Positions 1-59,759 of a stretch of DNA of 64,000 nt are shown here, piece after piece (the first letter of the stretch is position 1; each line of letters starts with the position of its first letter). Source of the DNA: Blepharisma japonicum (Eukaryota; Ciliophora; Heterotrichea; Heterotrichida; Blepharismidae); contig CATKHK010000069.1 of assembly GCA_949751835.1 (NCBI GenBank), forward strand, positions 62,001-126,000. The letters are read 5' to 3'. A program made the position numbers and the translations under genes. A model generated the notes under the pieces. The model was given only the letters and a program-made list of their open reading frames with translations. It ran no database searches and had not been told where the DNA came from.

Positions 1-3000
1 TTCCTGCAGGTCTTTTTGCATTTTGTATTACATTGATAGCATGTATTATAAGCTGGGCCACCCCAATATTGATTTATTTTACAGTTAGGAATACATATTT
101 GGCTTATTGGACAAACACTACAGGTTTCAGTACACGTGGTAGTCGATAAACTTGATACTGATTTTACAGTGTTAAACATCTGTATGGTATAAATAAAGCC
201 TTGATAGAAATTATAAATAGCTGATGAACTTGCTTGAGCTCCAATAGTCATTGTAGTATGAGGTCCTGCATCACTAAAAGCTCCATATCCAGTCAAACTA
301 GGAGAATAAGATATACCATTTACATAGCACGATAATGTATTATAGCCACTAGAAGCAGCCTCTAATGTAAATACTATATGACTCCATTCGTAATTTTTCA
401 TTGATGCTTCACATATATGAAAAATTGGGGAGACGCCCAAAGTACTCGAAAATATAGGCTTGCTATCCATTATAGATATGGAGTAAAGCGTTGAATAATC
501 ATTAGAAATATTGTGTTTTGATAATATAGCTGAGTATGAATTCTCAATGTTTAGCCATATAGAAATTGTAAAGGTAGGAGCAATTACAAGTCTTGGAGAT
601 GTATAATTTGAATACTCAGGAAGCCTTAAAACTGATGATTGTCCGTTAAATCAAAATCCTCTTAAATAAGCTGGAATAGGGTCATCAGCTTCATAATCAG
701 GATAAAATTGTTTTGTTGATCCAGTTATAACAGGGATAGAGCTTGCTTTATCATAGATGACTCCATTCAAAGTATTTAAATCTAAGTCAAAGATTTTTTC
801 TTGAACTAGCACACATCCACTTGGAGTTGAAGAATAACCTGATGGACAGCCGGACCCACAAATTCCTGAAGCCATATAATAGCCATCAGCACATGTCAAA
901 CAGTCTAAATAATTCGAAGATGTACAGGTCTTGCAGGAAGTATCACAAGCTTCACAATCCTCAGTGCCAGAATTCCAGTAATATCCAGAATTGCATTGAC
1001 AGTTTGTACCTATTAAGCTTGCATTCGTTTTACAAGTAATGCAGGTACTCGTATAATCATTGCATATTTTACATTTGATGTCTTGGCAAAGGTTGCAAGT
1101 GTTATCTTTTCTAACGCAGCCAACAATAGAGCATCCAGACAAGCATGAATCGCAGATATTGCCATTCCAGTATTTGTCTATAAGACAATTATCTAAGCAA
1201 GTATTAGAATTATCAACTGGGCATAATGAGCATCCACTGCAAGAGCTTGAAGTTAAAGAATTAGCTGTAATTGAATTATAGATTTTCAGATCCCATAGAA
1301 ACCCATTAAAATATGACGTTAAAGTAGTAGAATCTAGGTAGCTTGCTCCGATCAATAAAAGAGAAGAACTTTCTAAATCATTTAGTCAGCTTGCATACAA
1401 ATCGCTTGATGTATCAATATTCGCATTTGTAGTAAGCTTAATTATTTGCTGAGGAGTTGCGCTGATGTCGGATACGGCTGAAATAAAATTTCATTGGGAA
1501 AGAGTTGTCTCCAGCGAGGCAAGAGTACTTGTATAAGTGATTGTAGTAGAATCTTGAAGCGTCAGAATAAGTGAAGGGAATTTGCTTACTAATTCAAGAC
1601 TCACATATTTTGTAAATGCTCCACTATTAATTTGTTTACAAAAAATAACCCCTGTCCCATCTATTGGTTTTATCCAAGTAGAAATAATAAATTTAGGAGC
1701 CAATGCAAGCAATGGTGAAACTGTGCCTGTATAAGGAGGTAACTGCATATACGCTGATCCAGAAAAGTAATAGCCTCTATAAATAGCTGCTATTGGATCA
1801 GTTGCATCATAAGTAGGGTAAAATTTACTATCTTTGCCTGTGAGAACTGGAATACTTGAAGCTAAATCGGTAACAACGTCTTTTATTTGATGAGGCATCA
1901 AATTAAAAACTAGGGTGTCTGTATAAACTGGATCAATATCACAATTGCTGCCATTTATAACATATCCTCTTGGACAAAATGAAATACATAAAGACTGAAT
2001 TAGATAATAATCTGGGACACAAGTAAGACAACCAGTATATTCAACAGTAGAGCAAGTAGCACACATAGTATTGCAGAGCTCACAGGACTGAGTACTAGAA
2101 ATTCATAATGCATTATCCAAGCACGTGCAATGATCTACAGGCTTATAAGCATTTGTAATACAGCTGGTGCATTCTCCTGAAAAAGTAGTGCATGAGTAAC
2201 ATTCTTTATCCCTGCAAAGTCCACAAGTTAAATCACTAACACATCCTTGACTGCATCCTGTCAAACAAACAGTGCAGCTATCTGGATATTCATTTACAGC
2301 ACAATTACTTAAGCATTGATTATTAGACGGGCAGGCAGAGCAGCCAGTGCAAGACGTAGAATAATCATCAGACTGATGGCTATAAGAGTTATAAATATTT
2401 ACTCTTGCTAAAAATCCATATAAACCTAAAGTCCCAAAGGTTTCATCATTTCCAATATATAGAGTTCCTATGTTAGTATCTTTAAAGTAAATTAGTGATG
2501 TAGTAGTGATATCAGTAAAGGCAACTGCGTTGATATATAAAGTTAGCTTAGTTTTACCATCTGCTTGGACTTGCCCTGTAAAGCTTAAAAAGTTCCAGCT
2601 ATTTATTATGTTTGTTGTAGCTGTTAAAGTAGCAGATGACGAATCAGAAAAAATTACTGAAAGTATAGGATATCCTGAGGAGTCTATGCTAATTTTGAGG
2701 ATATCACTCGAAGTATATTTAGTTAATAGAATTCCAGCTGAAAGCGGCTTTATCCATAGAGAAATAGTGAAGGATGGTGCTATTACGACAGTAGAAGATA
2801 AATAGTTGCTTTGATAAAAATAATAGCCCCTTTTATAAGATGGTATTGGATCGTTTGAGTCTAAATCCCATTCAGGATAGGAATTTGTGTTCACAGAGCC
2901 TACATCAAAACCAGAAACTGTATCAAGACGCACTTGGTCCGTCAAGTCTAGGCTAATCCCTAAATTTGATGAATAATCACAAGTTTTTCCTGCAGAATAT

Positions 3001-6000
3001 GCATTATAGCCAGATGGGCATTCAGTTAAGCACTGTCCAGTTAGGGCGAAGAAATAATACCCTGAAAAGCATGCTGTGCATTTTATATAAGTTAAGCCTG
3101 TACATTGAGAGCAGCCATTAGAGCATGGGTCACATGAAAGCCCATCTGCAGATGTTGTATATCCAGGATTGCATACACAAGGAGTTCCACTAGCATTAGA
3201 AACACAATGAGTGCATTTTCCTGAGCCAAAATTAGAACAAATAGAACATAATAAATCATCACAAATATTGCATATAGATGCCCTGACACAACCTTTACTA
3301 CACGAACTGCATGCTGTATAAGCTGCCCCATCATAATATTGAGATAAATCACAAGACCATAGACAAGCATATCCAGAACCACAAATAGCATTAATATAGC
3401 TTGAAAAATCATTAATTGGCGTATTTCAGATCTGAAAAGCATTGATAAACCCCACAAACCCTGAAGAGCTGCTTTTTCCAATCATTAAATTCGTTGTAGC
3501 AAGGTCTCTAAAAACATAATTTGAAATAGGTGAGTTTGCTATTGAAGCGCCATTGATATAAATATCTATGCTTGTGGCACTCAAAGTGTATTCAAAAGTG
3601 ACTGATAAATAATTTCAATTATTTAGAGTAGACCCTGAAGACAAGGTTTGAATAGTAGTTGCTTGTGTAGGGTCTTCCATTAAAGCTTTTATAGTACCTG
3701 TAGAATATAAAACAAGCTGCTGGCTTTTCTTTTCAAGTCAGTCTCCATCAGTGATCACGTAAACTCATGCACCAATAGAAAAACTATGTGAAAGTAAAAT
3801 GTTAACTGATGATAATAAGTACATGTTTCCATCAAAATATAAGCCACGATTATAGGCAGGAATCGGATCAATTGATTCAGGACTATTAAAAAATTGAAAA
3901 GACGCTGAGGATGCTCCTGTTGTAAAAATCCCATATGAGCCTTGAAAATCTACATTGAAAGATTGATTAATTACAGTAGTTGATACTGATGAACAAGCAG
4001 CCCCAAATCCAAAAGGACAGCCATTTAAGCAAACCTTTCCAACCAATTGAGAGCTTCCTGAACAAACAGAGCATTCAAAATAAGTAGTTTTTATGCAAGT
4101 TGAACATAAGACATCACAGATTTCACATGTTTGAGACATAGCTACCCAAAAAGTATCAGTATCACAAGTGCAACCTCCAGCTCCATCAGCAACAGCATTT
4201 GTAATACAAGTCGAGCAAGAATTTGTCCCAGAAAACTCAGTGCAGGTGGCGCATTCTTTGGTCTTGCAGAGTCTACAAGTATCAGAATTTCTGCATCCTT
4301 TACTGCAGCTTGCTATACAATTTGTGCAGCCAGAGCCATTATAATATTGAGATAAAGGACAGTTATCTGGGCAGCTTAAATTAGCTGGACACTTTGTGCA
4401 GCTGCCTGAACATCCAACAGTCTGATAATCGTCTAAAGCATGGCCACTTTGGGTATAAATTTTAACAATTCACAGAAATCCAGTAAATGCTAAGCTAGAA
4501 TCCCCAATCTGTAAAATTCCTGATGTACTGTCTAAAAGGTAAAGTGGAGTAGTTGTAGAAGATGAGACTTGATTGGCACCATCAATATAAGATTTTACCG
4601 TTGTTGTCCCATCAGCATTGATTATACAGTCAAATGAGACGAAAAATCAGCTATTAAGCACGTTAGAGGCTCCTGTTACTGAAATTATGGTTGATGAGTC
4701 TGATAGAAGGAGTGAAATATTTGGCTGTCCTGAAGCCATAATATATATAAGTCATTGAGTTGCTGATACAAACTTAGAGATTACCTGGCCAGATGCTGTA
4801 GCTTTTATTCATATAGAAATTGAAAATAAAGGTGCAAGCATAAAATTTGCTTTTAAATAGCTGTTAGAATTAAAATAGTACCCTCTCAAATAAGAAGGAT
4901 AAGGATCATTTGCGTCATAATTCGGATATAAATTAGTATTTGAGACTCCAACAGTTATCCCAGAAATCGCATCTAGCAATATACTATTAGAGAATTCTAA
5001 TGAATAAACTGTAAAAGTGAGATCACAGTTCCTTGTACCTGAATTTAGAGTGTATCCTGATGGACACTCTGGTAAACACTGAATATTAAGAAAATAATAT
5101 CCGCTTAAACAACTTGTACATTGATAGTATCCATCTCCAGTGCAGGTTTGGCAGTTTGTTGGGCACGCAACACATGAAAGTCCATCATTTGAAGTCCTAA
5201 AGCCTTGATCACAAGCACAATTAGTTGGATTTTTTGATGCATTTGACACACACGTATTGCATTTTCCTGAGCCGAAGCCTGTACAGATAGAGCATAATAT
5301 ATCGTCACAGATATTGCAAGTATTAGGTCTAATACATCCTGTACTGCAGGAATTACAAGCAAAGCAAGAAGCACCGTTTTTATAGGTAGAGATGCCACAT
5401 GTCCATAAGCAAGAAGCTCCTAACCCCGATCCACAAAATGTAAAGCTGCTGATGATTGCGGTGAACCCTGTAATCTGAGTGTTTCACAGCTGAAAATAAT
5501 AAATAAACCCTACAAACCCAGAGCTGCTGCCTTTTCCTAGCTGTAGATTCGTTGATGCTTGATCTCTATATATTTTGCCAGAGATAGTAATTGACCCCGC
5601 AGAAACTCCATTTATATAAAGAAGAATAGGTGAAGAATTTGAAGTATAGTATAAAGTAAAAGATACATACGCCCAGCCGGCGAATGAAGAGCTTGGGGAT
5701 AAAGTTTGTGTTGATGTTGCTTGTGTAGTATCTTCCATTATAGCTGTTACTGTACCTGTTGATCCTACGGTTAATCTGGTTTGTTTTTGCAAAAAGTTTC
5801 CATCAGTGATCACATAAATCCATGCTCCCATGGCAAAGCTGTGTGATAGGTAGACAGAAACTGAAGATAATAAATACATATTTCCATCAAAATAAAGTCC
5901 TCTTGCATATGCAGGAACAGGATCTATGGTCTCAGGGGTATTAAAAAATTGATAAAAACTTGGATCTGTTCCTGTAGTAAAAATCCCATAAGAGCCTTGA

Positions 6001-9000
6001 AAATTAGTATCAAATAATTGATCAAGCACTAAAGTTGAAACTGGAGAGCAAGAAGCTCCATAGCCATAAGGACAATCATTTAAACAAATAGTGCCTACTA
6101 TTTGTTTCCCTCCCACACAAGTAGTGCACTCAAAATAAGTGGTTTGCTTGCATGCGGAACAAAGCGCATCACAAAAGTCACAAATGGCTGTGCTAGAAAG
6201 CCAAAAAGCATTTGCCTTGCATTGACACCCTCCAGATCCATCTGATTCTGCATTTGTTGCGCAGCTTGAACAAGACCCAGAAAAAGAAGTGCATTCATAG
6301 CACTGTTTTGTCTTACACAGTCCACAAGTATCTGTATATCTGCATCCTTTCGTGCAAGATCCCTTACAATTAACACAAGATGAACCATCATAATATTGTG
6401 ATAATGGGCAAGAATTAGGACAATTATGATCACTAGGGCAGCTTGCACAAGGAGAAGTACAACTTGATGTTGTATAGTCACTGTACTGCAAACTTCCTAT
6501 ATTAAAAATGTTTAAATCATATAAAAAACCAGCAAAGCCACTGCTAAGTGTAGATTTTGTCCCAATATAAAGAGTGCCTGAGCTGCGATCCTGAAAATAA
6601 GTGATGGTTGAAGATGAGCCTAAATCTGTGGTGAGAGAATTAAAATATGAGTTTATTGTTGTTACATAGCTTGAGTCGATTTTTCCTGTAAATGCAATAA
6701 AGTTTCAATTATTTAACACAGAAGTCGCTAAAGTTACAGAAAAGGATGAAGAATCGCTTAAAGTGAGGGAGAGCTTTGGGTATCCAGATCCACTTAAAAT
6801 TTCTAAGCAAAAAATTTCACTTCCAGAAACTGTTTTCGAGACAATAGTTCCAGCTCCAGATGGGTATATCCATATCGAAATAGTAAAATAAGGCCCAATC
6901 ACAGTATTCGTCGACAAATAATTATTTCCACTAAAATAGTATCCTCTCAGGTATAATGGATATGGATCATTCGAATCATAACTAGGATATGCATTTGCAT
7001 TAGAAGACCCTACTTGGACCCCTGAAATTGAATCAAGCACTAGTTTATCATAAAAAATTATGCTCAGTCCTATAGTTGACGAAAAATCACAATTTTTTGT
7101 GCTAGAGTTTTCTGTGTATCCTGTCGGGCAATTTAAAAGGCATTGAGTGCTGCTATAGAGAAAATTGCTGGAGCTGCAGGACGTACACAAATAATAAGCT
7201 GAGCCCGTGCAAGAAACACATCCAGTGTAGCAAGCCGAACAAAGGGCTTGATTTATAGGCTGATAAAATCCAGAATTGCATGAGCATGGAGTCCCAGAAG
7301 CATTATCAATACACAATGTGCAGGCTCCTGATGAAAATGATGAACATTGTTTACATAAGAAATCATCACAGATATAACAAGAAGTTCCTCTAGTACAACC
7401 CATTGTGCATGTTCCTATGCATGGCTGGCATGCACTTCCATCATAATAATGAGAGTAATCGCAAGACCATAAAGTTGCCACTATACCTCCTGAAAAGCCA
7501 AAGAGATTATAAGGGGTAGAAAAGTCTGTAATAGTGGTTCCTCAGAGCTGAAAATAGCTAATAAAACCATTGAAATTTGGAGAACCTTTGCCTATATATA
7601 AATTTCCACCGCTTGCTAGCCTAAATACATAATCTAAAGCGGTAACTGCTGTCCCAGCTACTGTATTTAGAAATGGAGTCAATGTTGTCGTCTTACTAGC
7701 AAATCCTACTGAATAAGAAACATAGCTCCATGCATTCAAATTTATAGTCTGTGACGTCGAGTAGCTTGCATAAGTCCCATCCCATTTTTGTAAGTCAAAA
7801 TTAATAGTCCCGCTTGAGCTTATGGTAAGCTTATTAGTGCTATGACTAATAATAGTCCCTGAAATAGCAAAAACCCACATCCCTATACTTCAAGTATTAG
7901 ATAAATTTTGAGTCACAGTCAAATATTGATTTAAATTAAAATATAGGCCTCGCTTTTTTGCTGGCAATGGATCAGACCCTTCAGGAGAATTCCAATAATT
8001 GTAGCTACTTGAACTTGTCCCTGTGATAAATACTGAAGTATAAATTCCAGCAAAAGTCCCTGTAAAATCTCCAGTTGTTGTAGCAAAACAAGAATTTCCT
8101 CCACAATTTCATCACCCAACTGGATACCCATATAAACAAACCCCTGCATTATTAGGGATTGAAGTACTGCATGCTGTATTCGACCATGTCTGAGTACAAG
8201 TTGTGCCTAAAATATCACAACACCCTGGAGTGATTCCTGTAAAGCACGCAGTACACAGAGGAAGCGTATACCCTTTGCAAGCACTGCAGTCTGATGTATT
8301 GCAAATCCTACAGTCTGTGCTTCTAATGCATCAAGGCCAGGTAGGGCAGCTTCCATCGCAGTTCTGACAGGCAGATTCATCTCAAAACTGGTTATTAATA
8401 CACTCAATCTGGCATCCATTATTACTTCCATAATTTGTATCAGTATCAGCTCTAGCTTGTAGCCAATAAATAAACCCTCTAAATGAGTTTCCTCCACTAG
8501 TATTCCCAATCGTCCACGTATAAGTTCCACTAGGGAAGCTAGCTTCTGTAGAAGATAAAGTTGTTGAACCAACTGATGAACCGCTGATATAAAAAATAAT
8601 ACTTGCTGAGTTACAAGAAGTTTGCTGGAGAAGAAAAGAAGCATAATGCCAAGATGATGAATAAGAAGAGCCAGAGCCAGTGACTATATTGGTATTTCAA
8701 CTGGAATCATAAATTTGTGCAGTAAATTTATAGACTCCAGAGGAATCCGCCCATATTCGGAGATATTGGGTTGAGCTTAAAATAACATTTAAAATTTCCC
8801 CACTAGCCAGTGGCTTAATTCATAAATTTAAGATAAAATAAATACCTGGGGTGTAGTTTTGATTACTAGTAATTCCTGAAGTTGTCGCAAAATAAAACCC
8901 ACGGTCAAAGGTCGGAAGTGGAGAATTTTGGGTAACTGAATTATAAGAAATAGAGCCTGGATTATTTCAATTATCGGCAGAGTTGCTAGTGCTCGTGATG

Positions 9001-9275
9001 TAAGTTGCAGTTAAGTCTTTGATATTGGAAAATTCCAATGTAAATAAAACAGAGGCTGTCGTACTGGGCTTGTTACATCAATCAGTGCAAGCTAAGGGAC
9101 AATATTTTTGAATGTAAGTAAAAAGAGATGGGCATGAATCCGCACAAACCTTGCTATCAACATAATATTGCTTAGAGCCGATGCATCAATATTTTGAAAA
9201 GGCTGATGCGAGATTGTTTGGGCATGAAGAATAGGCTAGCACAATTTGACTGATAAAAATTAGAACTTTGTTCAT
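1..9275 (-). CDS. Gene A: giant nine-module LamG/Cys-rich surface protein (C-terminus beyond window)
   Basis: The ATG at 9275 opens a signal peptide (MNKVLIFISQIVLAYSSCP). The frame then runs uninterrupted to the left edge (about 3091 codons) if TGA is read as Trp. Nine LamG/ConA-like domains recur about every 345 residues, with their RGYYF/RGLYF motifs near residues 125, 440, 775, 1120, 1465, 1810, 2150, 2505 and 2873. They are separated by Cys-rich linkers of furin/GF-receptor type (repeated CxxC, C-x3-C-P-x-G). By comparison with genes B-G, about 600 residues are missing off the left edge: the rest of the last Cys-rich linker, an Ig-like domain and the membrane tail. LamG domains usually bind glycans or proteins, so an extracellular recognition or adhesion role is inferred. 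It is the only paralog here with all nine module types in order, so it defines the module numbering. The ligand is unknown. Confidence 0.88.
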
Positions 9276-9627
9276 TTTATTAGAGTCGGTGAAAAATTGT
9301 TTTAAGGTAATGAAATATTTTAAGCTAAAAGAATTTCTTGTTATTAATAGGGTAAAGGCAATTAACTATTAATTTCAAAAATTTTATAGTTGTTTTGAAA
9401 CTTAAATTCAAATTAAAGGAAATTAAGAATTTTGATAATGGAAATTTTTATTTATGGCTAAACAATTGAAAATAGCTCTTAGCAATTGAGTTTAATTGAC
9501 AATTAAATATTTTTATCAATATTAAAACATAAGTTCCTAAGTAAAATAATACAGTCTGTAAAAAATTAAATTCATTAAAGCTTCAAATTATCAGCAATGT
9601 TTTGTAAATTAATTTATTTATTTTTAA
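9276..9627. other. Intergenic spacer between gene A start and gene B stop
   Basis: This is very AT-rich DNA with no usable frame. It must hold the 3' end signals of gene B and the promoter of gene A. I recognise no specific motif and no relic of the flanking genes. Confidence 0.5.
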
Positions 9628-12600
9628 CTATATAATTATGCTCGAATATATTTGATTTTTTTTTACAATTCCTTCCTTTGTTAGCTTGTATTTGATTATT
9701 TTATATAGTGTCCTTGAAAAAATGCCTATTGAAGCCAATGACTGAATTCCCATAATTGTTATCACAATTGCTATGATCCCATCCTCAATAGCCAAAACGA
9801 TTTCTTGATCGATATCAAATAAATAAACTGAAGTCGCACACATAATTAAAAAAATAGATACTTCTGTCAAAAGATTGCTTATTTGTAAAATTGCATCTTT
9901 AAATGGCCAGAAAAGAATTAAATGAATAATAGTCATTGCTGAAAGAACAATATTAATCGTTACTTCTGTTTGGGGATAATCTCTTAAAAAGACCAAATTT
10001 ATGATATAGATAAATCTCCTTATAAAAAACACAAAATAGTATTGCGTTGCTAGTAATCCTCGATCAGTTCGAAATTCATAAAAAAACGAGCTAAATAGCT
10101 GATTAAAGGTCTTCTCTCTTGATTGGATCTTTCATTTATTTTTAAAAGAAAACAAAAAATATACTGGTGGAGTAATAGCATGCAAAATATAAATAGTTGA
10201 ACATATAATAAGATTTGCTATTTGAGTGGTATTATTAAATCCAAAAGTCATAAGCCCAATACTTGCAGCTGCTCCAAGTTCTAGATAACACTGTATCCAA
10301 AATCTTAAATAAAAGGCAAAATGATAGGCCTTCACAGTTTTCATAAATTTCTTCCCTAATCATCTGAATGAGCATCGAGAAAAGAAAAATACAATTGGAA
10401 AAACTAATAGAGAAGCCAAAATCAATGCAAAATCATTTCCTGCGTTTAATAGGATTAAATCAGTGTCAAACCCAAAATCTTTTGCTTGAGAATAAGGAGT
10501 TTTTCCTTCATTTTTGTCTATGATATATTTAAAAGCATTTGGAATTAAATTAAATGAGTTCAAGCTATTCAAAAAAGCACTCATTTTGCTGGATAAAGGG
10601 ATTCTTGATAATGTCAAGTAGCTGAGAATCTGTAAACTATTCATCATACTCCATAGAGAACTTGGATTAGGATTTATAACTGATAAAGCAGCTGCTCCAG
10701 TAATAGCTGCTTGGGCCCCAGCACTTGCTTGAGATGTAGCTGCTGTTATATCAGGCGAATATGGCGCAGGATCATAAGAATTTAAGGATTCCGATATTTC
10801 TGATGAATTTAAAACTCCGTTTGAAACAGATCTCACTTCAGCTAAGTTTAAAAACTCAAGCTTAACTAATGTGCCTTCAGGTATTTCTTCTGAAATTTTT
10901 AAAGAAATATAATAACAAGTGCTGTTTATCTGTTCAATGTTATATGAAATTTCACCTAAATTTTCAATTGCTATTGTAAAATCTTCTACTGTAAGACCCT
11001 CAGCAAGACTGTCTGAAAAAGTAAGAATGAGAGAATTATCTGATAAAACTGAGAGTTCTGCTGAAAAAGGAACTAAAGTACAAAAATTTGTTCCGTTATA
11101 GCCTAAATTACAATAGCATAGATTATTAATAAGTATCGCATTTTCTACACAAGCAGTGCATTCTGTAAGAGATTCACAATTAGTGCAGTAATCTGGGCAT
11201 GAATAAAATTTGCCATCAGTGCCTCTAAAACCACCAGCCTCAAGAGGAATGCAAGTACTGTTGTTAGAAGTGTCTAAAACATAATTGACGTCACAAATAC
11301 ATGAATCAGGATTTATTGCATTCTCTTTGCAAGCTGAGCATCCAGAATCAGAATAATCAGTGCAGGTGTCGCATAATAAATTACTGCAAAGTGAGCATGT
11401 AGATCGTCAGTCTCTGCAGGTTTTCTTGCATTTGATATTGCAATTATAACATTTATTGTCGCCTGGCCCACTCCAATATTGATTTATTTTGCAGTTGGGA
11501 ATACAGATTTGGCTTATTGGGCAAACACTGCAAGACTTGGTGCAAGATGTTGTCGATAGACTTGATATTGATTTTACTGTATTAAATATCTGAATTGTAT
11601 AAATAAAACCTTGATAAAAATTATAAATTGCTGATGAACTTATTTGAGCTCCTATAGTCATTGCAGTATTAAAACCAAAATCAAGAAAAGCTCCATATCC
11701 TGCCATGATTGATGAATCAGAAAACCCATTTATATAGCAGGATAACTTATTATAGCCATTTTGAGAACTTTCTAAAGTAAATGCAATGTGACTCCATTCA
11801 TAATGATATAGTGATGCTTGACATGTATAAAATATTTGGGATGAGTTTATTAAAAGAAAAATTGTTGGTTTACCACTTATTAAAGAGATAGAGTAAAGTG
11901 TTGAATAAGCATCGAAAGTGTTATATTTAGATAACAGAGCCGAAAATGATGTTTCAATGTTTAGTCATATAGAAATAGTAAAATTTTGAGCCAGTACGAG
12001 TTTAGGAGATGTATAATTTGAATATTCAGGGAGTCTTAAAACTGAGGACTCACCATTAAACCAAAACCCTCTGAGATATGCAGGGATCGGATCGTCATCT
12101 TCATAGTCTGGATAAAATTGACTAGTTGAGCCAGTAACAACAGGTATTGAGCTTGCTTTATCATAAATTATTCCATTTAAAGTATTTAAATCCAAGTCAA
12201 AAATTTGTTCTTGAACTAATATGCATCCACTTGCAGATTTAGAATACCCTGTAGGGCAGTTACTTAAACAATTCCCAGAAACCATATAATAGTAATCATT
12301 GCATACCAAACAATCCAAATGACTAGGAGATGTGCAGGTTTTGCAAGAATTATCACATTTTGTACAAATATTTGCCCCTGGACTTATAAAATACCCTGAT
12401 GGGCACTCAGCTAAACATTCGCCAGTAACTGCATAGAAATAATATCCCGAAAAGCATGCTTTACATTCCTGAGAAGTTAAGCCTGTGCATTGAGAGCAGC
12501 CTGTATAGCATGCCACACATGAAAATCCATCAGAAGAAGTCCCATAGCCAGTATTACAGATACATGAATTTGGGGCTCCACTGGCATTAGTAACGCATTG

Positions 12601-37300: not shown

Positions 37301-37378
37301 AGACCCTGTGCTGTCATTCGGAGGACAGCTTGACAAAGTCAACACTATTTTGGCGATAAAAATCACAATCAAGTCCAT
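28388..37378 (-). CDS. Gene D: seven-module LamG/Cys-rich multi-pass membrane protein
   Basis: The frame of 2996 codons runs from ATG at 37378 to TAA at 28388. The start chosen gives the conserved signal peptide MDLIVIFIAKIVLTLSSCP. An in-frame ATG 33 bases upstream (37411) would add 11 residues not seen in paralogs. LamG modules lie near residues 122 (type 1), 438 (2), 769 (5), 1116 (6), 1456 (7), 1811 (8) and 2181 (9). An Ig-like domain follows from about 2506 and a seven-helix tail from about 2726. The linker before module 5 is a hybrid: its first half (GCTRGTSCYICDDFLC) matches the linker that precedes module 3 in genes A, C and G. Its second half (CTSCKSGYYFLNIQCLSECP) matches the linker before module 5. 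This shows how modules 3-4 were dropped. Cell-surface role inferred as for its paralogs. Confidence 0.9.
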
Positions 37379-47600: not shown

Positions 47601-50086
47601 CTGACACAACCTTTGATGCATGAATTGCAGGATAAATAAGAAGACCCGCTTCAATAATGAGACAAATCACAAGATCATAAACAGGCATGCCCTGATCCAC
47701 ACAAAGCATTAATATAGCTAGAAAAAGAGCTGATTGATGCATTTCAGAGCTGAAAAGAGTTGATAAACCCTTTAAAACCAGATGAGCTGCTTTTACCAAT
47801 TATTAAATTTGTGGAAGCAAGGTCTCTATAAATGTAATTTGAAGCAGGCAAAGTTGAAGCTAAAACATTGTTGATATAGATATTGATAGTTGTGCTGCCA
47901 GAGGAATATTCAAAAGTCACTGACAAATAATTCCAATCAACAAGTGTTGTACCAGAAGACAAAATCTTAGAGGCTGTGGCTTGTGTAGGGTCTTCCATAA
48001 TAGCCGTAATACCTCCTGTCGATGATAAAATAAGCCGGGTTTGTTTTTCTAATATATCTCCACTCGCTATTACATAAAGTCATAATCCTATAGAAAAACT
48101 ATGATAAAGAAGCACCGATGTAGATGATAGCAAATAAGTACTTCCATCAAAATATAAACCTCGCTTATATGCAGGAATAGGGTCAATTGATTCAGGAGAG
48201 CTAAAAAACTGAAAAGAAGCTGAGCTGGTTCCTGTTACCATAATTCCATATGAGCCTTGGAAATCCTCATCGAAAGACTTATCTATCACAGGAGTTGTTA
48301 CTGGCAAACAAGAAACACCACTGAATCCATAAGGGCAACCATTTAGACAGGTATTTCCAACTAATTGATAGCTCCCTACACAAGTTGAGCACTCAAAATA
48401 AGCTGTTTTTAAGCAAGTTGAGCAAAGTACATCGCATTTTTCACAAGATTGAGTTAAAGATACCCAAAAAGCATTTGTATTACAAGTGCAGCCTCCAGAG
48501 CCATCACTTACAGCATTTGTAATACAAGTTGAGCATGAACCTGCCCCTGAAAATGCTGTGCATGTAGCACATTCTTTAGTCTTACATAAATTGCAGGTAT
48601 CAGAGCTTACGCATCCTTTATTGCAGGTTGTCTTACAGTCTGAACAAGATGAGCCATTAATATATTTATCTAATGGGCAATCACTTGGACAAGTGAAATC
48701 AGCTGAACATTTTGTGCAGGGTGATGAGCATCCTGTTGTTTGCCACTCATCTAAGTAATGATTATTTAAGCAATAAATTCTCATTTTTCAAATAAAGCCT
48801 GTAAAGCTAGCACTGTCATGTCCTATATATACATTTCCTGAAACGCTATCTTGTATAGATAATGCAGTCGCTGTTGTGAAAGAATCTAAGAATGATCCAT
48901 CAACATAAGAGCTTATAATTGTGGTCCCATCAGCATTAATGCTGCCATCAAAAGAAATAAAGAACCATCCATTCAGAACATCAGAACTTCCTGTTACTGA
49001 AATTGCGGTTGACGAATCTGACATCAGAAGGGAAAGCTTAGGATATCCTGAGGACAAAATTTCTAGAAATCATTGGTATGCTGGCACTGGTTTAACTAGA
49101 ACTATTCCTGTTGATATAGCCTTTATCCATATAGCAATTGAAAATGTAGGAGCAAGTTTAAGAGGTGATGTTAAATAGCTGTTAGATTTAAAGTAATAAC
49201 CTCTCGATTGAGCTGGATAGGGATCATTTGTATCATAATTTGGATAAGTGTTAGTATTTGAAGATCCTGCAGAAACTCCTCCTCCTTGACTAAGGATAAT
49301 TTTATTATCTAAAGTCATCGTAAGTGTAACAAGATTAACGTAATCGCAGGTATTTGTGCTTGAATTTTGTGTATATCCTGTAGGGCAATATGATAGGCAT
49401 AATATATTTTGGTATGAGAAAGAGCCAGAACTGCAGGAAATACAATAAGCTTGTGCCGTGAGGCAAGCTATAGTAATTAGCTGAAAACTCAGCTTGGTGT
49501 CTCTATTCGCTAAATCAAGAATTTTACATATAGATAGAACCAAAAATGTGTAAAGCGCAATTAAATGATAGGGTGCTTTATAAAAGTCTGAGAAAATATT
49601 TGACCTCCATATATAAGAATATGAGCTCAAAGCCTTTTCTCAAGTAAATTGATTTATTGATAAAACTAACCTAAAATAACGATTCTGTGAAGGATTTTGA
49701 TTTCCTATGATGCTTGAAGCTGCATCAAAATAAAAATCCTGATTGGTGGATGATATCAGAGATTTTTCAGCACAAAATGAAGTAGGCAAATTAATAAACC
49801 AATTTTGTGGAGAATTGTTTGAATTTGAGAAATTTGTAGCTGATAAATCTTGAGCACTTGAAATTATCATTTCAAGTGAATTTATATCATCTTCTCTGAG
49901 TATTGTGTATAAGCCAAAACTAATATTTTGACCTAATCAACTAAATAGGGAAGGGTTTGCCTTTTTGCAGTCAATTTTATATTTAAGATAAAAGTGACCA
50001 GGTTTTATTCCTCAATTATAGCTACCATGTGGGCCAAATGACCAGATGAGTACAGCTTTGGAGATAATAATCAGAATAAAATTCAT
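44639..50086 (-). CDS. Gene F: short LamG/Cys-rich membrane protein with relic first module
   Basis: The frame of 1815 codons runs from ATG at 50086 to TAA at 44639. The signal peptide MNFILIIISKAVLIWSFGPH is followed by a collapsed module 1: a fragment near residue 119 (DFYFDAASSIIGNQNPSQNR) and then non-homologous hydrophobic sequence (residues about 155-205) containing YHLIALYTFLVLSICKILDL, which could be an extra membrane helix. Full modules 5, 6 and 9 follow near residues 299, 644 and 982. The linker between 6 and 9 is a clean hybrid: GSGKCTQCVPNAS belongs to the linker after module 6, and LVGTSCQCNSGYYW to the linker before module 9. The Ig-like domain begins near 1312 and the membrane tail near 1522. 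The C-terminus has three copies of a ten-residue repeat. It is most similar to E and G in the tail. Confidence 0.87.
44691..44780 (-). repeat. Three 30-bp tandem repeats in the gene F C-terminus
   Basis: Units at 44691-44720, 44721-44750 and 44751-44780 are nearly identical; each ends gagtttttctttt on the plus strand. In frame they encode three copies of a ten-residue charged unit (KEKLVESGIV, KEKLGESGIV, KEKLVKSGNV) in the cytoplasmic end after the last membrane helix. Other paralogs have the KxKLxxxGIxK unit once, so this is a local in-frame expansion. Confidence 0.95.
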
Positions 50087-50524
50087 TACGTCATTAAGGC
50101 ATTATGGTGAAACAAATCAATGTTATAATTAGAACTAAAAAACTTTATTGAAGAAATATTTGAATATATTTTGATCTAGGAATTTTAAATATCTAAAATA
50201 TAAAATGCAGAGCATTCGTGCTTAAAACCTTTGAAAACCCTTTCCTAAAAAATAAAAATTCTAAATTAAAATGAGAAAATAAGCATTATAAGCTACTAAA
50301 CCTTAATTCTAAAAAAACTCGGTTATAATTAATAGCAGGTTCGCTTATTAATTTTTTTAAGACAAATTTATTTTAAAACATAAATAAATATCTGATGTTG
50401 TCTGAGATATCTGCTATCAAAAAATGGATTGCCTATGAATAAGCTAATTTAAATGCAAAGGTCTCTTAAATTATAAAAAATCCGTAATAAATTAAATAAA
50501 GATTGACTGATTTTAAGTTTATTT
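50087..50524. other. Intergenic spacer upstream of gene F
   Basis: This is AT-rich DNA immediately upstream of the gene F start. No gene or motif was recognised. It probably contains the gene F promoter. Confidence 0.4.
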
Positions 50525-50890
50525 TAATCGAATTCGATTTTATTTTTTGAAAGAAATCAAATAAATTCAATTGGGGTAATAATTAATGATATATAACAGA
50601 AACACATAAAATAAATTTGTTATTTTGAATGATATTTTTGAGATTAAAATCTGTAAGCCAAACACTGGTAACAATTCCTAATTTCAAGATAGCATAGAAT
50701 CCAAAATCTTAAATAAAATGAATATTTAGAAGCTTCCAAGGCTTTCAGAAATTTATTTCCAATAAATCTGTGTGAGAACATCGAGAAAAAGAAAAAATAA
50801 TTGGCAGAATTGCAATTGAAGCTAAAATAAATGTAAAATAATTTCCTTGATTATGAGAATTAAATTAGTATCAAATCAAAATGCTTTATT
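50525..50890 (-). pseudogene. Fossil membrane-tail fragment downstream of gene G
   Basis: Read on the minus strand, pieces in shifting frames match the family's membrane region: NQGNYFTFILASIAILPIIF, then SRCSH, then KYSFYLRFWILCYLE, then a segment matching the helix after it. Stops and small length changes interrupt it, so it cannot code a protein. The NQGN form groups it with the tails of genes E, F and G (B and C have AGN or TGN). It has no LamG, Cys-rich or Ig-like part, so it is a partial duplication or the last trace of a lost paralog between F and G. Confidence 0.8.
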
Positions 50891-50998: not shown

Positions 50999-51367
50999 CT
51001 ATTTTACGATTTTCCTAACTTTCTTTTCATTTTTTTGAACTTGGTTGTGAAGTGGAAGGATTTTTGCTTTGTCAATTTTCCCAGTATTAAACTTATTTCT
51101 AAAAAACTCATATACTGTCCTAGCAGAAATAGTTATTGAAGCAAGTAACTGAATTCCTATTATCACAATGACTATTACCACAATACAATCTTCAATTTTA
51201 GATATCACATTTGACTCAAGATTAAATAAATAAGCTGTTGTGGAGCCCATTATCGTGCATATTAAAATTTCAGTCACTAAATTGCTTATTTGCGAAATTT
51301 GGTCTTTAAAAGGCCAGTAAATTAATAGGTGCATAATAGTCATTAAGGAAAGCACAATATTAACAGT
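50999..51367 (-). pseudogene. Out-of-frame 3' remnant of gene G (last membrane helices)
   Basis: This segment encodes TVNIVLSLMTIMHLLIYWPF and onward through the last three hydrophobic helices to a TAG at 50999, collinear with the ends of genes B-F. It lies in a different frame from the rest of gene G (offset by one base). About 90 codons present in the paralogs (from the helix after FEFTN to DYPQTE) are missing at the join near 51367. It is therefore not translated as part of gene G unless the ribosome shifts frame. Confidence 0.85.
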
Positions 51368-54300
51368 TAGTGAATTCTAGTTCAATAATTCCTATACTAA
51401 CTGCAGCTCCTAATTCGAGATAGCACTGAATCCAAAATCGTAAATAAAATGCGAATTGATATGATTTTAATGTTTTTCTAAGCTTATTGCCGATTCATCT
51501 CTGAGAACATTTAGAAAAATAAATTACCAGTGGTATCGCTGCAATAGAAGCAAATATTAATGTAAAATCATTTCCTTGATTTATCAAAATTAGATCACTC
51601 TCAAATCCAAATTCCTGAGCTTGAGAATATGGGGTATTTCCTTCTTTTTCATCTATTATGTAAGAAAACATATTTGGAAACAAGTTAAAACTGTTCAAAC
51701 TATTCAAAAAGGCTCTCAATTTGCTAGAGAAAGGAATCCCTGATAAAGTCAAATAACTAAGAATTTCCAAGGTATTAATAATGCTTCATAAAGAACTTGG
51801 ATTTGGACTTATAAACGATAATGCAAGAGATGCAGCAACTGCAGTTTGCGCTATTGCCGTTGCTTGTGACGCAATTTCTGCAATAGTTGGGGAATATGGA
51901 TCAGGATCATAAGAATTCAAAACTACAGAAAAATCTGATGAATTTAAGATACCATTTGACACTGATATTACCCCTTTTAGATCTAAAAACGCTAAAGTAG
52001 CTAAGGTGCCTTTAGAAATTTCGTCTTTAATATTTAAAGTGATAAAATAGCAGGTGCTATTAACTTGCTCAATTTTGCATAAAATTTCTCCTTGATTTTC
52101 AATTACTATTATAAAGTCATAGACTGTAAGATCTTTTGCTAGGCTTTCTGAAAAGGTAAGGCAAAGGGAATTATCAGAGAGAACTGTAAGTTTGGCTGAA
52201 AAAGGAACCCATGTGCAAGCCTTGGTGCCATTGTAGCCTAGATTGCAATAGCAGAGATCGATTTTTAGGCTGGCATTTTCTACGCAAGCAGTACATTTAG
52301 TAAGAGATTCACAAGAAGTGCATAGGTTTGGACAGGGACAAAGGACTCCATCAGGACCTCTGAATCCGCCTTGTGCAATAGGAATGCAAGTAGTGTTATT
52401 TGGAGTATCTAGCACATGATTATCATCACAGACGCATGAGCTATCATTTACAGCATTTTCTTTGCAGTTTACGCATTCTGCTGGCGAATAGCCAATGCAG
52501 TTTTCACATAATAAATTATTGCAGAGTGAGCATGTATCTCGCCAGTCCCTGCAAGACTCTTTGCAATTTATATGGCAATTATAGCATTTATTATAAGCAG
52601 GCCCACTCCAATATTCGTTAATTCTGCAGTTTGGGATACAGATTTGGTTTGTTGGACAAACGTTGCAGCTTTCAGTACACAATTTAGTAGACAAGCTCTC
52701 TATTGTTTTTATTATATTAAATATCTGAATACTATAAATAAAGCCTTGATAATAATTATAAAGTCCTTGCGAGCTAATTTGCGCTCCTATAATAGTAATA
52801 GTATGAGTAGTTACATCAGTAAAAGTTCCATACCCAGTTGTCGTAGACGAATCAGAGAGCCCGTTTATATAGCTCGACATTATATTATAGCCACTATTTG
52901 GCTCTAAAGTAAATACAATATGACTTCATTCATAATTATTAAGCGAGGCTTGACATTGGTAAAAGAATGGAGATGAATTTATAGTCAAGGAAATTGTTGG
53001 CTTGCTGCCTATTAATAAGACTGAGTAAAGAACTGAAAAATTATTAGAAATATCATGCTTCGATAACAGAGCAGAGGACAAAATTTCTGTATTAATTCAT
53101 ATAGAAATTGTAAAGGTAGACCCAATTGCAAGCTTTGGAGATGTGTAGCTTGAATGCTCAGGGAGTCTTAAAACTGAAGATTTTCCATTAAAATAAAACC
53201 CTCTTAAATAAGCAGGGATAGGGTCATCAGCTTCGTAATCTGGATAAAATTGCTTAGTTGTCCCAGTTATAACTGGGATTGAGCTTGCTTTATCATAAAT
53301 AACTCCACTCAGAGTATTCAAGTCTAAGTCAAAAACTTTTTCTTTGGCCAGGACACATCCAATTGAAGAAGGAGAATATCCTACTGGACAGCCAGCTTTA
53401 CAAACTCCTGAAGACATATAGTACCCATCAGCACACAATAAGCAGTCAGAAGAACTAGAAGATGTGCAGGTTTTGCAAGAAATATCACATAGCTCGCAGT
53501 CTTCGTTGCTAGTATCCCAATAATACCCAGTATTACATTGGCAGCTTGTCCCTACTAAGCTTGCATTTGTTTTGCAGACAATGCATGTAGTTGTATAATC
53601 ATTGCATTTTTCACATATAACGTCTTTGCACAAGTTACAATTTTTATCAGTCCTTACGCAACCTCTATTAGAGCATCCAAGTACACAGGATACGCAGATG
53701 CTGCTCTCTAAGTATTTATCTAAATCACAATGATCAAGGCAAGTATTACTATTATCAATAGGACATAAAGAGCATGATCCACAAGTGCTTGAAGCTAAAC
53801 TGCTGATTGACATTATTGTATTATAGATTTTCAGGTCCCATAAAAATCCATTAAAAAAGGACACTATAGAGGTAGAGCTTGAGTAGCATGCCCCAATTGT
53901 TATTAAAAATGAGTTTTCTAAATCATCCATTCAACTTGGGGCTAAATCACTTGAGAGATCGGTGACTCCATTTAGAGACAAACTTATAGTTTGCTGAGGT
54001 GTAGAGCTTATGCTGGAAATTGCTGATATAAAATTCCATTGATTAAGAGTAGCTAATAATAAGGGATTAGAACTTGTATAAGTGATTGTGGATGAACCTT
54101 TTAGAGTCAAAATAAGAGATGGGGCTTTGCTTATTAGCTCAAGACTGATTAATTTTTTAAATAATCCGCTGTTGGATTGCTTAGAAAAAATAACCCCTGT
54201 GTCTGTTATTGGCTTTATTCAAGTTGATATAGTAAATTTTGGTGCAAAAGTAAGTAATGGTGACGTAGCGCCTGCATAAGGGGGTAGCTGCATGTAAGAT

Positions 54301-57300
54301 GAACCAGTGAAATAATATCCTCTATTAATGGCTGCTAGAGGATCAGTTGCATCATAATTAGGATAAAATTGGTTATCTTTTCCGGTGAGAACTGGTATAT
54401 TTGACTCTAAATCAGTGACAACATCATTTATTTGATGCGGCATCAAATTGAATACCAAAAAATTGCTATAAGCAGAATTACTATTACAATTGCTACCATT
54501 TATAACATATCCAGTAGGGCAAAATGACATACACAAAGATTGTATCAGATAATACCCTGATACACAAACAAGACAGCCATTATACTTAAGTGTAGAACAA
54601 GACGCACAAATTGAATTGCAAAGTTCACAGCTTTGAGAACTGGAGACTCATAAGGCATTTGCAAGGCACATGCAATGGCCAGCTGATTTATAAGCATTTG
54701 TAATACAGCTTGTGCATTCTCCAGAAAAGGTAGTGCAAGTCTCGCATTCTTTGTCTCTGCAAAGATTGCATGACAAGCCATTAACACATCCTTGGCTACA
54801 GCTAGAGCAAGCTGTGCAGCTATCTGGGTATTTATCAAAGTCACATTCACTTAAGCATTGATGATTTGAAGGACAAACAGAGCAGCCAGTTCCGCATGAA
54901 GAAGCTGCATAATCATCAGCTTGGTTACTATTTGAATTATATATTATTAATCGTGCTAAAAATCCATGGAGTCCTGAAGTTCCAAAAGTTTCATCGTTTC
55001 CTATATAAAGGGCTCCAAAAATACTATCTTTAAGATATGTCAAAGAAGTAGTTGCAATAAAGCTAATAGAAACCGTGTTGATATAGAGATTAAGAACTGT
55101 TTTGCCATCTGTCTGTACTTGGCCTGTAAAACTTAAGAAATGCCAGCTATTTAAAATGCTTGTAGGAGATGTTAAAGTTTTAGAAGTTGAATCGGAAAAT
55201 ATTACTGAGAGGACTGGAAATCCTGATGGGTCTACAGTTATCTTTACAATATCACTAGAGAAATATTTCGTTACTAATATCCCAGCTGCGAGTGGCTTAG
55301 TTCATATAGAAATTGTAAATGATGGTGCAATTACCACATTTGATGATAAGTATTTGCTGAATTTAAAGTAGTAGCCTCTTTTATAAGCTGGAATTGGATC
55401 ATTCGCATCAAAATTTGGATAAGTATAAACATTATTAACACCCACATTGAACCCAGAAACAGTATCAAGACGAATCTGATCTGTTAAATCCAGGCTAATA
55501 CCTATATTTGACCCATAATCACATGTATTTGCTATTGTATTTTCAGTATACCCTGATGGGCACTCGCCTAAGCACTGTCCAGTTGAAGCAAAAAAGAAAA
55601 ACCCTGAAATGCACGCAGTGCATTTATTGTAAATTGCAATTGTGCATAGAGAGCACTCACTCGGGCATAAAATACATGAAAGCCCATCTATAGAAGACCC
55701 ATAGCCAGGATTACAAAAGCATGAACCAGAAACTAAAGTAGCACCAGAAATGCATTGAGTGCATTTTCCTACATCAAATCCTGTGCAAACTAAGCATAAT
55801 ATATCATAACAAATATTACATGAATTTCCTCTAACACATCCTTTAGAGCATGAGTTACAAGCTGAACAAGAAGCCCCATCTTGGTATGTTGAGATTGAGC
55901 AAGCTGATAAGCAAGAACCTTTCGATCCTGCCCCACAAAATGTGAAGCTATTAACAATACTTAGAAAATCAGTAATTCTTACATTTCACAGCTGAAAATA
56001 ATATAGAAACCCAACAAATCCAGAACTGCTACCTTTTCCTAATTGCAAATTAGTATTGGATTGGTCTCTAAAAATGAAATTAGGGTTGCTTAATCAGTTT
56101 GCTAAATTTCCATTGATATAAATTTCGAAAATAGATGCACCTGATGTGTAAGCTACTACAGTTGATACATAATTTCACCCTGCAAGTAAAGAGGTTTGTG
56201 TTAGTGAAATTACTGAATTTGCTTGCATATTGTCTTCCATCCTTACACTTATAGAGCCATTTGACGTTATTTTAAGCCGATTTTTCCTTATAGCATTTCC
56301 ATCTATGATATCATAAATTCATGCCCCCGTAGAAAAGCTGTGAGAAAGTAAAACAGGAGATGAAGACTGCAAAAGCATGTCCCCATCAAAATAAAGACCT
56401 CTTTTATATGCAGCAGGGATAGGATCATCTGCTTCAGGAGATGTAAAATGCTGATATGTGCTTGAAGAAGTCCCAGAAGTAAAAATTCCATAAGACCCTT
56501 GAAAATCAGTGTCAAATAATAAATCAATAACTACCGTTGAGACTACTGCACAACCAGCTCCATATCCATAAGGGCATTCATTTAAGCATATATCATTTAC
56601 TATTTGGCTTCCCGCCACACAAGTATTGCATTCAAAATGGATTGCTTGTTTGCAGACAGAACAAAGTATATCACACACCTCACAGTTACCTGAATTCCAA
56701 AACGCGTTTGTCTTACATTTGCATCCTCCTGATCCATCACTTTCTGCATTTGTGATGCAGCTTGAGCAAGATCCAGAAAAAGTATCGCATGCACTGCACT
56801 GCATAGTCTTACAAAGGGTGCATGCACCGCTAGAGCTGGTATATCTACACCCATTATAGCATAATCCTGAACAAGTTTCACATGATGATCCATTATAAAA
56901 CTCCAAAAATTGGCAAGTTTTAGGACAGTTATGGTCACTAGGACATTGAGTACAAGGAGAATTGCAGCTTGTAGTTGTATAGTCACTGAGTTGAAACATG
57001 CTTCTATTAAAGATCTTTAAATTATATAAAAAACCTTCAAAACCACTTGTGCCTGAATTTCCAATATAAAGAGTACCAATGATTTGGTCTTGAAAATAAG
57101 TTTGAGTTGAAGAGGTGCCTGAGCCTACTGAAATTGAATTAAAATATGAGTTTACGGTGACTCTGCTGCTTGAGTCAATTTTCCCTGTAAATGAAACAAA
57201 GCTTCAACTGCTTATTAGGGCATTTTGAGATGATGAAACAGAAAATGGCGAAGAGTCGCTTAAAATAAGCGAAAGTTTGGGAAATCCACTATTGAGCTCA

Positions 57301-59759
57301 AGGCAAAAAATTTGAGACCCTGAAATTATTTTTGTTACAATTGGGCCTGATGATATTGGATAGATTCATATAGATATAGTAAAATACGGGGCTATCATTA
57401 TATTTGTTGACATATAGCTTGATGGTTTAAAATAATACCCTTGCAGATACTGCGGATATGGGTCTCCTGTCTCATACGATGGATAAGCATTATTTGTAGG
57501 CCCAACTTGTATTCCTGAGACTGAACCAAGCTTTATTTCATCATAAAGAAGCAAACTTAATCCATTTGATGAAAATATGCAAGTTTTTGCTGAGGAGTTC
57601 TCTATATATCCTGTAGGGCAGTTGAGTAGACATATTTTATTAATATATAAAAAGTTGCCAGAGTTGCAGGAAGTGCATGAAGTATCTAGAGGGCCTATAC
57701 AAGTGACACATTTTGTATTGCAAGGAGAACAAAGAGCTTGGTTTGTAGGCTGATAAAACCCAGGATCACATGCACAAGGGGTTCCAGAAGCATTAGAAAT
57801 ACATAATGTGCAAGCATTTGGTAAAAAAGATGAGCACTGAGAACATAAAAAATCGTCACATATGTAGCAAGATGTCCCTCTAGTACAGCCCATTGTGCAA
57901 GGGCCTGAAGCTAGGCATGGCTGACAATTGGTTCCATCATAATAATGAGAATAATCGCATGGCCATAAAGTAGATACCACTCCACCTATAAATCCGTAAA
58001 TATTATATGCATCGGAAAAGTCTGTAATAGTTACACCTCATAGCTGATAATAACTTATAAAGCCTTTAAATTTCGGAGAGCCTTTGCCTATATATAATTT
58101 TCCACCATCCAGCAGCCTAAATGCATAATTTGAAGCTGTTACTGATGCCCCAGCAACATTGTTTAGATATGGAGTTAGTGTCGTAGCTTTATTAGCAAAG
58201 CCTATTGAATAAGAAGCATAGCTTCATATATTTGGAGTTATAGAATTTGATGCAGTGTAGCTTGCTGATGTCGCATCTCATTTTTGTAAGTCTACATTAA
58301 TAGTCCCATCAGCTTTTATGATAAGTGCATTTGTGTTATCACTAATCATAGTCCCAGAAATAGGATAAACCCAAAATCCCATGCTCCAAGTATTAGATAA
58401 ATTTATAGACCCACTCAAAAACTGGCTCGAATCAAAATAAAGACCTCTATTTTTAGCTGGAAATGGATCAGATGTTTCTGCGCTATTCCAATAATTATAA
58501 CTTACAGAGCTACCACCTGTAATAAGCTCTTTTGCATAAGTCCCAGCAAATGCAGTATTAAAATCAGCTGTTAAAACTTCAAAACAATAATAACCTCCAC
58601 AGTCGCCTGCCCCATAAGGAGTCCCATACATGCAAACTCCTTCATTAGGCAGTCCAAAACTGCATACCGTGCTAGTTCAAGTTTGAGTACACTCAGTGGC
58701 TAGATGGTCACAGCAAAGTGGAGAGTTTCCTGTAGTGCATCCAGAGCATTCTACATAAGAGTAACCAGTACAAGACATACAATCTGGAGAAAAGCAAATT
58801 GAGCAGTCACTTCCTCTAACACACCAAGGTCAATTTGGACATGAATTATCGCAGTCTTGACAAATAGATCCATCATAGTACTGATTATTAATACATTCAA
58901 TAGTAGGAGCTGAGACTGCACTATTTGTTTCATAATCGACTCTTGCTTGAAGTCAATAAATAAATCCTCTAAACGAATCATATATACCTGTATTTCCAAG
59001 ATTTCATTTATAAGTCCCGCTAGGAAAGCTCAGCTCAGAATCACTCCACATCACGCTATAGGCCATAGCTCCATCAATATCAATAGTAAATGAGGCTGTA
59101 CTACAATCACTTTGAATAAAATAAATTGATGTATAATGCCAAGATGTAGGATTTGCATAATTGCAAGACTCTGATACATGATTTTGTGCACCATATGAGT
59201 TCTTAATTATGGCCTCAAAATGATGAATACCAAGAAATGTCTCTATTTTTATATAAGATAATGTGTCAATCATGACATTTAAAATTTCTCCACCTTCAAT
59301 AATTTTTATTCATAAATTTAGAATAAAATAAGGACCTGGGATGAAGCTTGTGCTGCTGGCCATCCCAGATGTATGGGCAAAATAAAAGCCACGATCTTTA
59401 GTAGGCAATGGGGATTTCTGTGATTGATCATTAAATTGGATTCCACCTGGGTTTAAAAAATATGTGCTGCTGCCATAAACAGCATCCTGTATTTGGACAC
59501 TTGTAAAATCTTTAAAACTTGAAAATTCTAAAGTGAATAAAATTGCATTTGATGGATCAGGCGCAAGACAGTATTTATAGCAGGTATCACAAGTCATTTC
59601 ATCTGGGAAGAGAGATGGACACTTATCTACGCATATTAGGGAGTCAACCATGTATTTTGGTTTATTGCAAGTGAGTCTTCCAAGGTAATCTAAACTATCA
59701 AATGGGCACGCTGAAAGAACTAAAGCAGCATGAACGATTAAAATAAAGATCCCTAACAT
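51360..59759 (-). CDS. Gene G: seven-module LamG/Cys-rich protein with truncated membrane tail
   Basis: ATG at 59759 gives the signal peptide MLGIFILIVHAALVLSACPF. The frame (2799 codons) ends at TAA 51360-51362. LamG modules lie near residues 121 (type 1), 440 (2), 776 (3), 1120 (4), 1463 (7), 1815 (8) and 2185 (9), so the 5-6 pair is missing. An Ig-like domain begins near 2523. The tail has the first hydrophobic helix (residues about 2735-2755) and the conserved FYLRFWIQCYLELGAA helix, then ends after EFTNC because of an internal deletion of about 90 codons with a frameshift. The protein would keep its entire ectodomain and about two helices rather than seven. It may still be membrane-anchored, or the gene may be a recent pseudogene. 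No 15-21 base GT...AG intron at the join restores the frame cleanly. Confidence 0.85.

Follow-up and report, generated by a model that had tools for sequence, protein, structure and literature searches.

Arrays of repeat-protein genes that evolve by birth and death, such as those of spider silk and the nucleotide-binding site–leucine-rich repeat (NBS-LRR) clusters, contain tandem paralogues that undergo unequal exchange, vary in repeat number, and leave relic copies. In ciliates, the closest described counterparts of the locus considered here come from Tetrahymena. Its mat locus contains head-to-head gene pairs that are completed from end segments (PMC3608545), and the MTA and MTB proteins combine a Cys-rich GFR domain with five transmembrane (TM) helices (PMC10901506). 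Mdl1p, a Tetrahymena membrane protein of 346 amino acids (aa), has one LamG domain (Laminin_G_3, PF13385) and one predicted TM or pore-lining helix (PMC9159632). Here, we describe an array of seven giant multi-LamG genes, A to G, in a 64,000-nt stretch of Blepharisma japonicum DNA (contig CATKHK010000069.1, positions 62,001 to 126,000; “the window”). An earlier sequence-only reading had seen in this array combinatorial mosaics of nine ordered LamG module types and the layout of a locus that makes diverse ectodomains on a fixed membrane tail. The layout is real and well resolved, and it is best read as ordinary gene-family evolution of an old birth-and-death kind.

By description, the array resembles MTA/MTB in being a ciliate tandem locus whose products have a large extracellular part, a Cys-rich region, and a multi-helix C-terminal tail (PMC3608545, PMC10901506). 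Unlike the head-to-head pairs, the seven genes all occupy the minus strand, and unlike germline MTA/MTB genes, which are incomplete and share a tail exon, genes B to F each carry their own complete, diverged tail. With Mdl1p, the array shares a Laminin_G_3 domain in a ciliate membrane protein; unlike Mdl1p, its proteins have 3 to 9 LamG domains and range from ~1,700 to over 3,000 aa. Unlike those of spider silk and NBS-LRR arrays, its modules are old and individually recognizable, which allows a join to be located within its linker. Neither LamG nor laminin occurs as a word in the main text of PMC10901506, nor do laminin, concanavalin, or lectin in that of PMC9942806. Among the matches listed in searches for ciliate LamG, heterotrich laminin, furin-like repeat, concanavalin A-like lectin, and Blepharisma gamone or receptor, no title or abstract opening described this array; supplements and subscription papers lie outside that search.

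When UGA was read as tryptophan (translation table 4) and TAA and TAG as stops, the window resolved into eight stop-to-stop frames of at least 200 aa, the shortest of 887 aa, all on the minus strand. Blepharisma reads UGA as tryptophan and its DNA is 66% A+T (PMC9942806); the code and ~34% G+C of the window (range, 27 to 38%) fit this genus. Seven of the eight frames, giant and uninterrupted, encode LamG domains and are named A to G in window order. Gene A was assigned from its open reading frame (ORF), ATG, nine LamG domains, and the type tree; genes B to G were assigned from ORFs, ATG starts, profile matches, and the type tree, with the F relic and the half-linker tree in addition:

3–9275, minus strand: gene A, open at the window edge, LamG types 1-9 (stop-to-stop frame 3–9365)
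9628–17676, minus strand: gene B, LamG 1-5-6-5b-6b-9 and a complete tail, TM part 9631–10665 (frame 9628–17712)
18485–27529, minus strand: gene C, LamG 1-2-3-4-5-6-9 and a complete tail, TM part 18488–19531 (frame 18485–27568)
28388–37378, minus strand: gene D, LamG 1-2-5-6-7-8-9 and a complete tail, TM part 28391–29440 (frame 28388–37423)
38366–43495, minus strand: gene E, LamG 7-8-9 and a complete tail (frame 38366–43552)
44639–50086, minus strand: gene F, a degenerate LamG 1, then 5-6-9, and a complete tail (frame 44639–50101)
51360–59759, minus strand: gene G, LamG 1-2-3-4-7-8-9, with an ORF that stops early inside the TM tail (frame 51360–59837)

The ORF is open over the whole in-window length in six of the seven genes, although A is incomplete: the window edge cuts it 33 residues past LamG 9, and its TM tail lies outside the window. 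The proteins share one layout, consisting of a start that is signal-peptide-like by eye, 3 to 9 LamG (concanavalin A-like) domains, Cys-rich linkers, a Cys-rich stalk, and a multi-helix membrane tail. Gene E retains an N-terminal remnant, the last part of which is a type-6-like second half-linker. When the eight intergenic stretches were compared with each other by blastn (plus strand), no conserved spacer was found at E ≤ 1e-3.

To count LamG domains, we used a profile built from the window’s own proteins with a threshold of >50 bits, which yielded 42 domains (9 in A, 6 in B, 7 each in C, D, and G, and 3 each in E and F). The type 1 relic at the start of F had a profile score below zero and was left out of the tree. 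In the proteins and cassettes scanned with Pfam, the domain was Laminin_G_3: the two of seven proteins scanned whole exceeded the gathering cut-off of 27.6 bits (C, 152 bits; F, 83.2 bits), and all nine scanned cassettes matched at E ≤ 1 (best E, 3.9e-20). In a maximum-likelihood tree of the 42 domains, each of the nine types formed one side of a branch, requiring 8 label changes, the minimum, versus a mean of 30.4 for shuffled labels. Support was 100/100 for type 1; 100/99 for types 2, 5, 8, and 9; 98/97 for type 3; 95/93 for type 7; moderate, 86/94, for type 6; and weak, 71/67, for type 4. All 42 domains had a nearest relative of their own type. Mean identity was 65.6% between same-type domains of different genes (83 pairs) versus 25.2% between adjacent modules of one gene (35 pairs). 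The nine types and the module orders proposed in the sequence-only reading, in which genes are ordered subsets or rearrangements of types, thus agree with the tree, and its proposed check, that same-type modules cluster more tightly than within-gene neighbors, was passed. Every gene has a different module set. Types 1 and 9 had been taken to anchor the ends: type 9 does close every gene, but type 1 is missing from E and degenerate in F. As a separate observation, LamG 1 of G (58884–59558, minus strand) has a long branch (0.84) and the highest ratio of nonsynonymous to synonymous divergence (dN/dS) seen, 0.64 with D; this domain may be relaxed or diverging in function.

The view that modules 3-4, 5-6, and 7-8 behave as paired cassettes holds as a tendency to pairwise loss. 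It is not strict, since 2-3-4 are missing from B and F and 1 to 6 from E. The tendency can be explained by an older two-module super-repeat, in which types 2, 4, and 6 group with each other and types 3, 5, and 7 likewise, and linker homology follows parity. In the LamG tree, types 2, 4, and 6 formed one larger group (98/95) and types 8 and 9 another (97/94); the group of 3, 5, and 7 had low support. Between different types in the 2 to 7 range, LamG identity was 42.3% for even-even, 40.1% for odd-odd, and 25.0% for even-odd comparisons; the corresponding linker values were 50.8, 47.5, and 34.3%. On a plain reading of these sequences, an older super-repeat would underlie the pairing, and in-register exchange between two-module units would remove or add a whole pair.

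Linkers had also been proposed as segment classes. Here several linkers are chimeric, so that the nominal types do not hold up as units; linkers beside missing modules often depart from their nominal type. Joins were tested with residues diagnostic for one or the other of two parent types, taken across the full LamG-plus-linker unit, allowing one parent change and using 2000 shuffles. Four of the five tested joins were placed (B_1, B_6, D_2, and F_6):

35321–35326, minus strand: join 2/4′ in the type-2 linker of D, 147 of 150 diagnostic residues fitting, p = 0.0005
14548–14562, minus strand: join 6/4′ in the first type-6 linker of B, 60 of 73 fitting, p = 0.0005
47504–47521, minus strand: join 6/8′ in the type-6 linker of F, 158 of 172 fitting, p = 0.0005
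16651–16674, minus strand: join 1/4′ in the type-1 linker of B, whose second half goes with type 4, 166 of 172 fitting, p = 0.0005
55755–55802, minus strand: best but not fixed place of join 4/6′ in the type-4 linker of G, coordinates worked out by hand
21232–21233, minus strand: join in C, where a whole type-6 linker is followed by an extra type-8 second half, located by hand from segment lengths

LamG ends at unit residues 214 to 223 and the four placed joins map to 266 to 300, so all four are in linkers. Controls expected to lack a join were not significant (A_4, p = 0.53; C_4, p = 0.51; A_6, p = 1.0). A linker-only test agreed (D, p = 0.0002; B_6, 0.0026; F, 0.0002; G, 0.18; all six controls, 1.0); in this test, the second parent of D fitted at 35 of 39 residues when taken as type 6 and at 40 of 43 when taken as type 4. 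The C join is common to B (about 12366–12367): in both genes, the 166-aa linker between LamG 6 and 9 (20342–22258 in C and 11512–13401 in B, minus strand) contains an extra Cys-rich type-8 half-repeat, and the two extra halves are sisters (99/95).

We also built a tree of 22 second half-linkers. Inferred-source labels required 3 changes, the minimum, over 22 rows; nominal labels required 7 over 17 rows, 5 having no label. The second half of D_2 was placed with type 4 and that of G_4 with type 6; the second halves of B_1, D_2, and B_6 grouped together within type 4 (83/86); the first join of F fell with type-2 halves and the start of E with type-6 halves. Approximately unbiased (AU) tests rejected the nominal second-half grouping for G_4 (p = 0.029), B_6 (p = 0.0475), and F_6 (p = 0.0002). 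Chimeric linkers of this kind look as in-register unequal recombination would leave them. A search for a common motif covered five join windows (excluding the G join, and with the C_6 window 24 bases off center, 48 bases before the join) and found none: the best 6-mer occurred in 3 of 5, compared with a mean of 2.6 and a maximum of 4 of 5 in random linker windows.

The age of the array was estimated from 159 pairwise codon comparisons of like segments, repeated once. Synonymous divergence (dS) was 0.6 to 1.5 in 139 comparisons, below 0.6 in 7, and above 1.5 or saturated in 13. The lowest value, 0.33, came from B_5b and C_5, an extra comparison outside the 159; other close pairs were linker 5 of A and C (0.37) and the tails of B and C (0.40). 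The saturated comparison was linker 1 of A and B, one of which is chimeric. In the 158 comparisons with finite dS, dN/dS ranged from 0.08 to 0.64 (median, 0.23), and no segment comparison showed dN above dS over whole domains. Near-identical cassettes and recent cassette copying were not seen among the compared segments. As judged from these codon comparisons, the array copies are old and constrained.

The membrane tail, taken as constant in the sequence-only reading, turned out to be shared but diverging like module 9. In the five genes with complete tails, the other four tails are 62 to 82% identical to that of C, and dN is similar in the TM part (0.08 to 0.26) and module 9 (0.10 to 0.23). 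These five tails show 6 to 11 raw hydropathy peaks, some overlapping, or roughly 6 to 8 membrane helices. By eye, the C terminus of F (44639–45000, minus strand), unlike those of the other tails, finishes with a short series of near-identical ~10-residue repeats. The tail of G is broken by an internal loss of ~90 codons relative to its paralogues and a frame change (region 51032–51800, minus strand). This loss looks recent, or specific to this genome copy, because conservation persists in the remainder of the tail. Tail fragments outside the ORFs are as follows:

51032–51358, minus strand: rest of the G TM tail in another frame, 109 aa, 55% identical to C
50464–50852, minus strand: relic TM tail between genes G and F, best tblastn E = 8e-13
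18233–18411, minus strand: short relic of a tail C terminus between B and C, tblastn E = 4e-4

The relic between G and F is probably the remnant of a lost gene, and both relics may derive from lost genes. Together with the broken G tail, they indicate birth and death.

Overall, the locus is probably an old birth-and-death array with recombination in linkers, and its products would be Cys-rich surface receptors for adhesion or recognition with multiple LamG domains and multiple TM helices. The array has same-strand tandem paralogues, dS from 0.33 to saturation, relic tails, and a broken member, and recombination joins are present inside homologous repeats. In the history we propose, an ancestral gene much like A, with types 1 to 9, would have grown by doubling a two-module unit and then been copied in tandem. 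Through unequal recombination among linkers that resembled each other, in most cases in register, copies would have lost module blocks (B also gaining one); each exchange would join the first part of a linker to an even-type second half. Some copies died. Because such recombination is mostly in register, odd-even pairs would tend to come and go with order kept. By deletion alone from the A-like gene, C would have lost 7-8 (a loss shared with B), D 3-4, G 5-6, F 2-4 and 7-8, and E 1-6. B would have lost 2-4 too, and it carries a second 5-6 pair.

The trees bear on this order of events. In the module 9 tree, B grouped with C (100/99), and a grouping of A with C was rejected (AU p = 0.0006); in the tree of modules 5-6, A, C, and B_5b/6b came together (100/99), and B with C was not rejected (p = 0.20). 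Since both sets of modules are compatible with a single gene tree that unites A, B, and C, exchange among all genes as the main driver was rejected as unnecessary. The trees of modules 1 and 2 left gene relations unresolved. Recent duplication of the B 5-6 pair was also rejected: B_5b and B_6b pair with C (dS of 0.33 and 0.68). B_5 and B_6 are at dS of 0.86 and 1.02 from B_5b and B_6b and at 0.97 to 2.01 from other genes, and the group of A_5, C_5, and B_5b (100/98) excludes B_5.

Several observations weigh against this explanation. The first 5-6 pair of B is not derivable by deletion alone; we infer that it is either an import from another gene or an old duplicate. A D-like source would fit the half-linker grouping of B_1, D_2, and B_6, but the LamG trees do not settle this. 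Join 4/6′ of G was not placed (40 of 63 residues fitting, p = 0.26), and the AU test did not reject the nominal grouping for D_2 (p = 0.12). The first join of F was not resolved, as a type-2-like half-linker is followed by an F_5 that starts with mixed type-3 and type-5 residues. The join shared by C and B adds an extra half-repeat and is thus not in register. The source labels were set after the linkers had been viewed, so the 3-change result is descriptive. The branch uniting types 3, 5, and 7 is poorly supported (55/53 and 63/77). DNA identity between types in gene A is only ~0.3 to 0.7 (linker second halves); homology-driven exchange must therefore date from when types were more alike. Last, structure models of the tail and cassette were poor, with predicted local distance difference test (pLDDT) scores of 43.2 and 39.2.

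Different module sets in every gene, built from modules that stay constrained, could also point to selection. Unequal exchange, unprogrammed, would then supply module diversity that is kept for many binding specificities, such as mating, self recognition, or the binding of prey or bacteria, in keeping with the common glycan- or protein-binding role of LamG, which is also discussed for Tetrahymena Mdl1p. Since dN does not exceed dS over whole domains and gene birth and death alone yields different module sets, we regard this as possible but doubtful. If, conversely, only one or a few genes worked and the rest had lost modules by drift, the degenerate type 1 of F, the broken G tail, the two relic tails, and the long branches of types 7 and 8 in E (0.59 and 0.52) would be expected. 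The open ORFs and a dN/dS below 0.65 in every finite comparison make such widespread decay improbable. False module orders produced by collapsed or misjoined repeats are a concern at any repeat-rich locus; here the copies are easily told apart at the dS values observed, ORFs stay open through joins, and the one join common to B and C predates their divergence, so that an assembly artefact is hardly credible.

Programmed assembly, in which somatic genes are built from a germline segment array during macronuclear development, as with Tetrahymena MTA/MTB, giving diversity among cells or strains, would agree with the ciliate-type code, the tandem array, the large ectodomain on a Cys-rich multi-helix tail, and the location of the four placed joins in linkers. 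It would not explain why B to F each have a complete tail of their own, why all genes point in one direction rather than forming head-to-head pairs, why joins lie at different linker positions with no shared motif beyond chance, or why no cassette is near-identical to another; we judge it very unlikely. Another long shot is a recognition-diversity locus of a heterotrich, in which ordered LamG cassettes would be exchanged via Cys-rich linkers, in evolution or in macronuclear development, so that each strain or mating line has its own receptor set, perhaps including mating or gamone receptors. The proposal of a locus making diverse ectodomains on a fixed tail is not supported: the tail diverges, near-identical cassettes are missing, the joins are old, and no join motif was found. 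As far as the sequence goes, programmed shuffling is unsupported, and the locus gives no sign of machinery that actively generates diversity.

LamG is a widespread module for binding glycans or proteins. With the signal-peptide-like starts, the Cys-rich linkers, and the ~6 to 8 membrane helices, the layout fits a surface adhesion or recognition receptor, which would bind glycans or cells. One of the nine cassettes matched Pfam Furin-like_2 (E = 0.0007). The tail had no Pfam match above the cut-off and no PDB match at E ≤ 1, Foldseek found no match to the poor tail model at E ≤ 0.001, and no PDB sequence relatives of tail or cassette were found. The tail was not found in viral contigs, nor the cassette in prokaryote genomes, which says little since these collections are not meant for ciliates.

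The module types are old and distinct, and the array can therefore be read as a record of domain gain and loss in giant repeat proteins. Placed joins in linkers and a largely respected two-module register mean that LamG domains stay whole. In a ciliate whose receptors for gamone 1 are described as putative (PMC10892320), the array also offers a set of candidate surface receptors. Should module content vary between strains, the locus would allow recognition diversity in a protist to be tested directly.

The eighth frame is no part of the LamG array. It lies directly upstream of gene G on the same strand (60087–62750, minus strand) and encodes an 887-aa protein with several hydrophobic stretches by eye and a match to ANF_receptor (PF01094, E = 3.4e-11).

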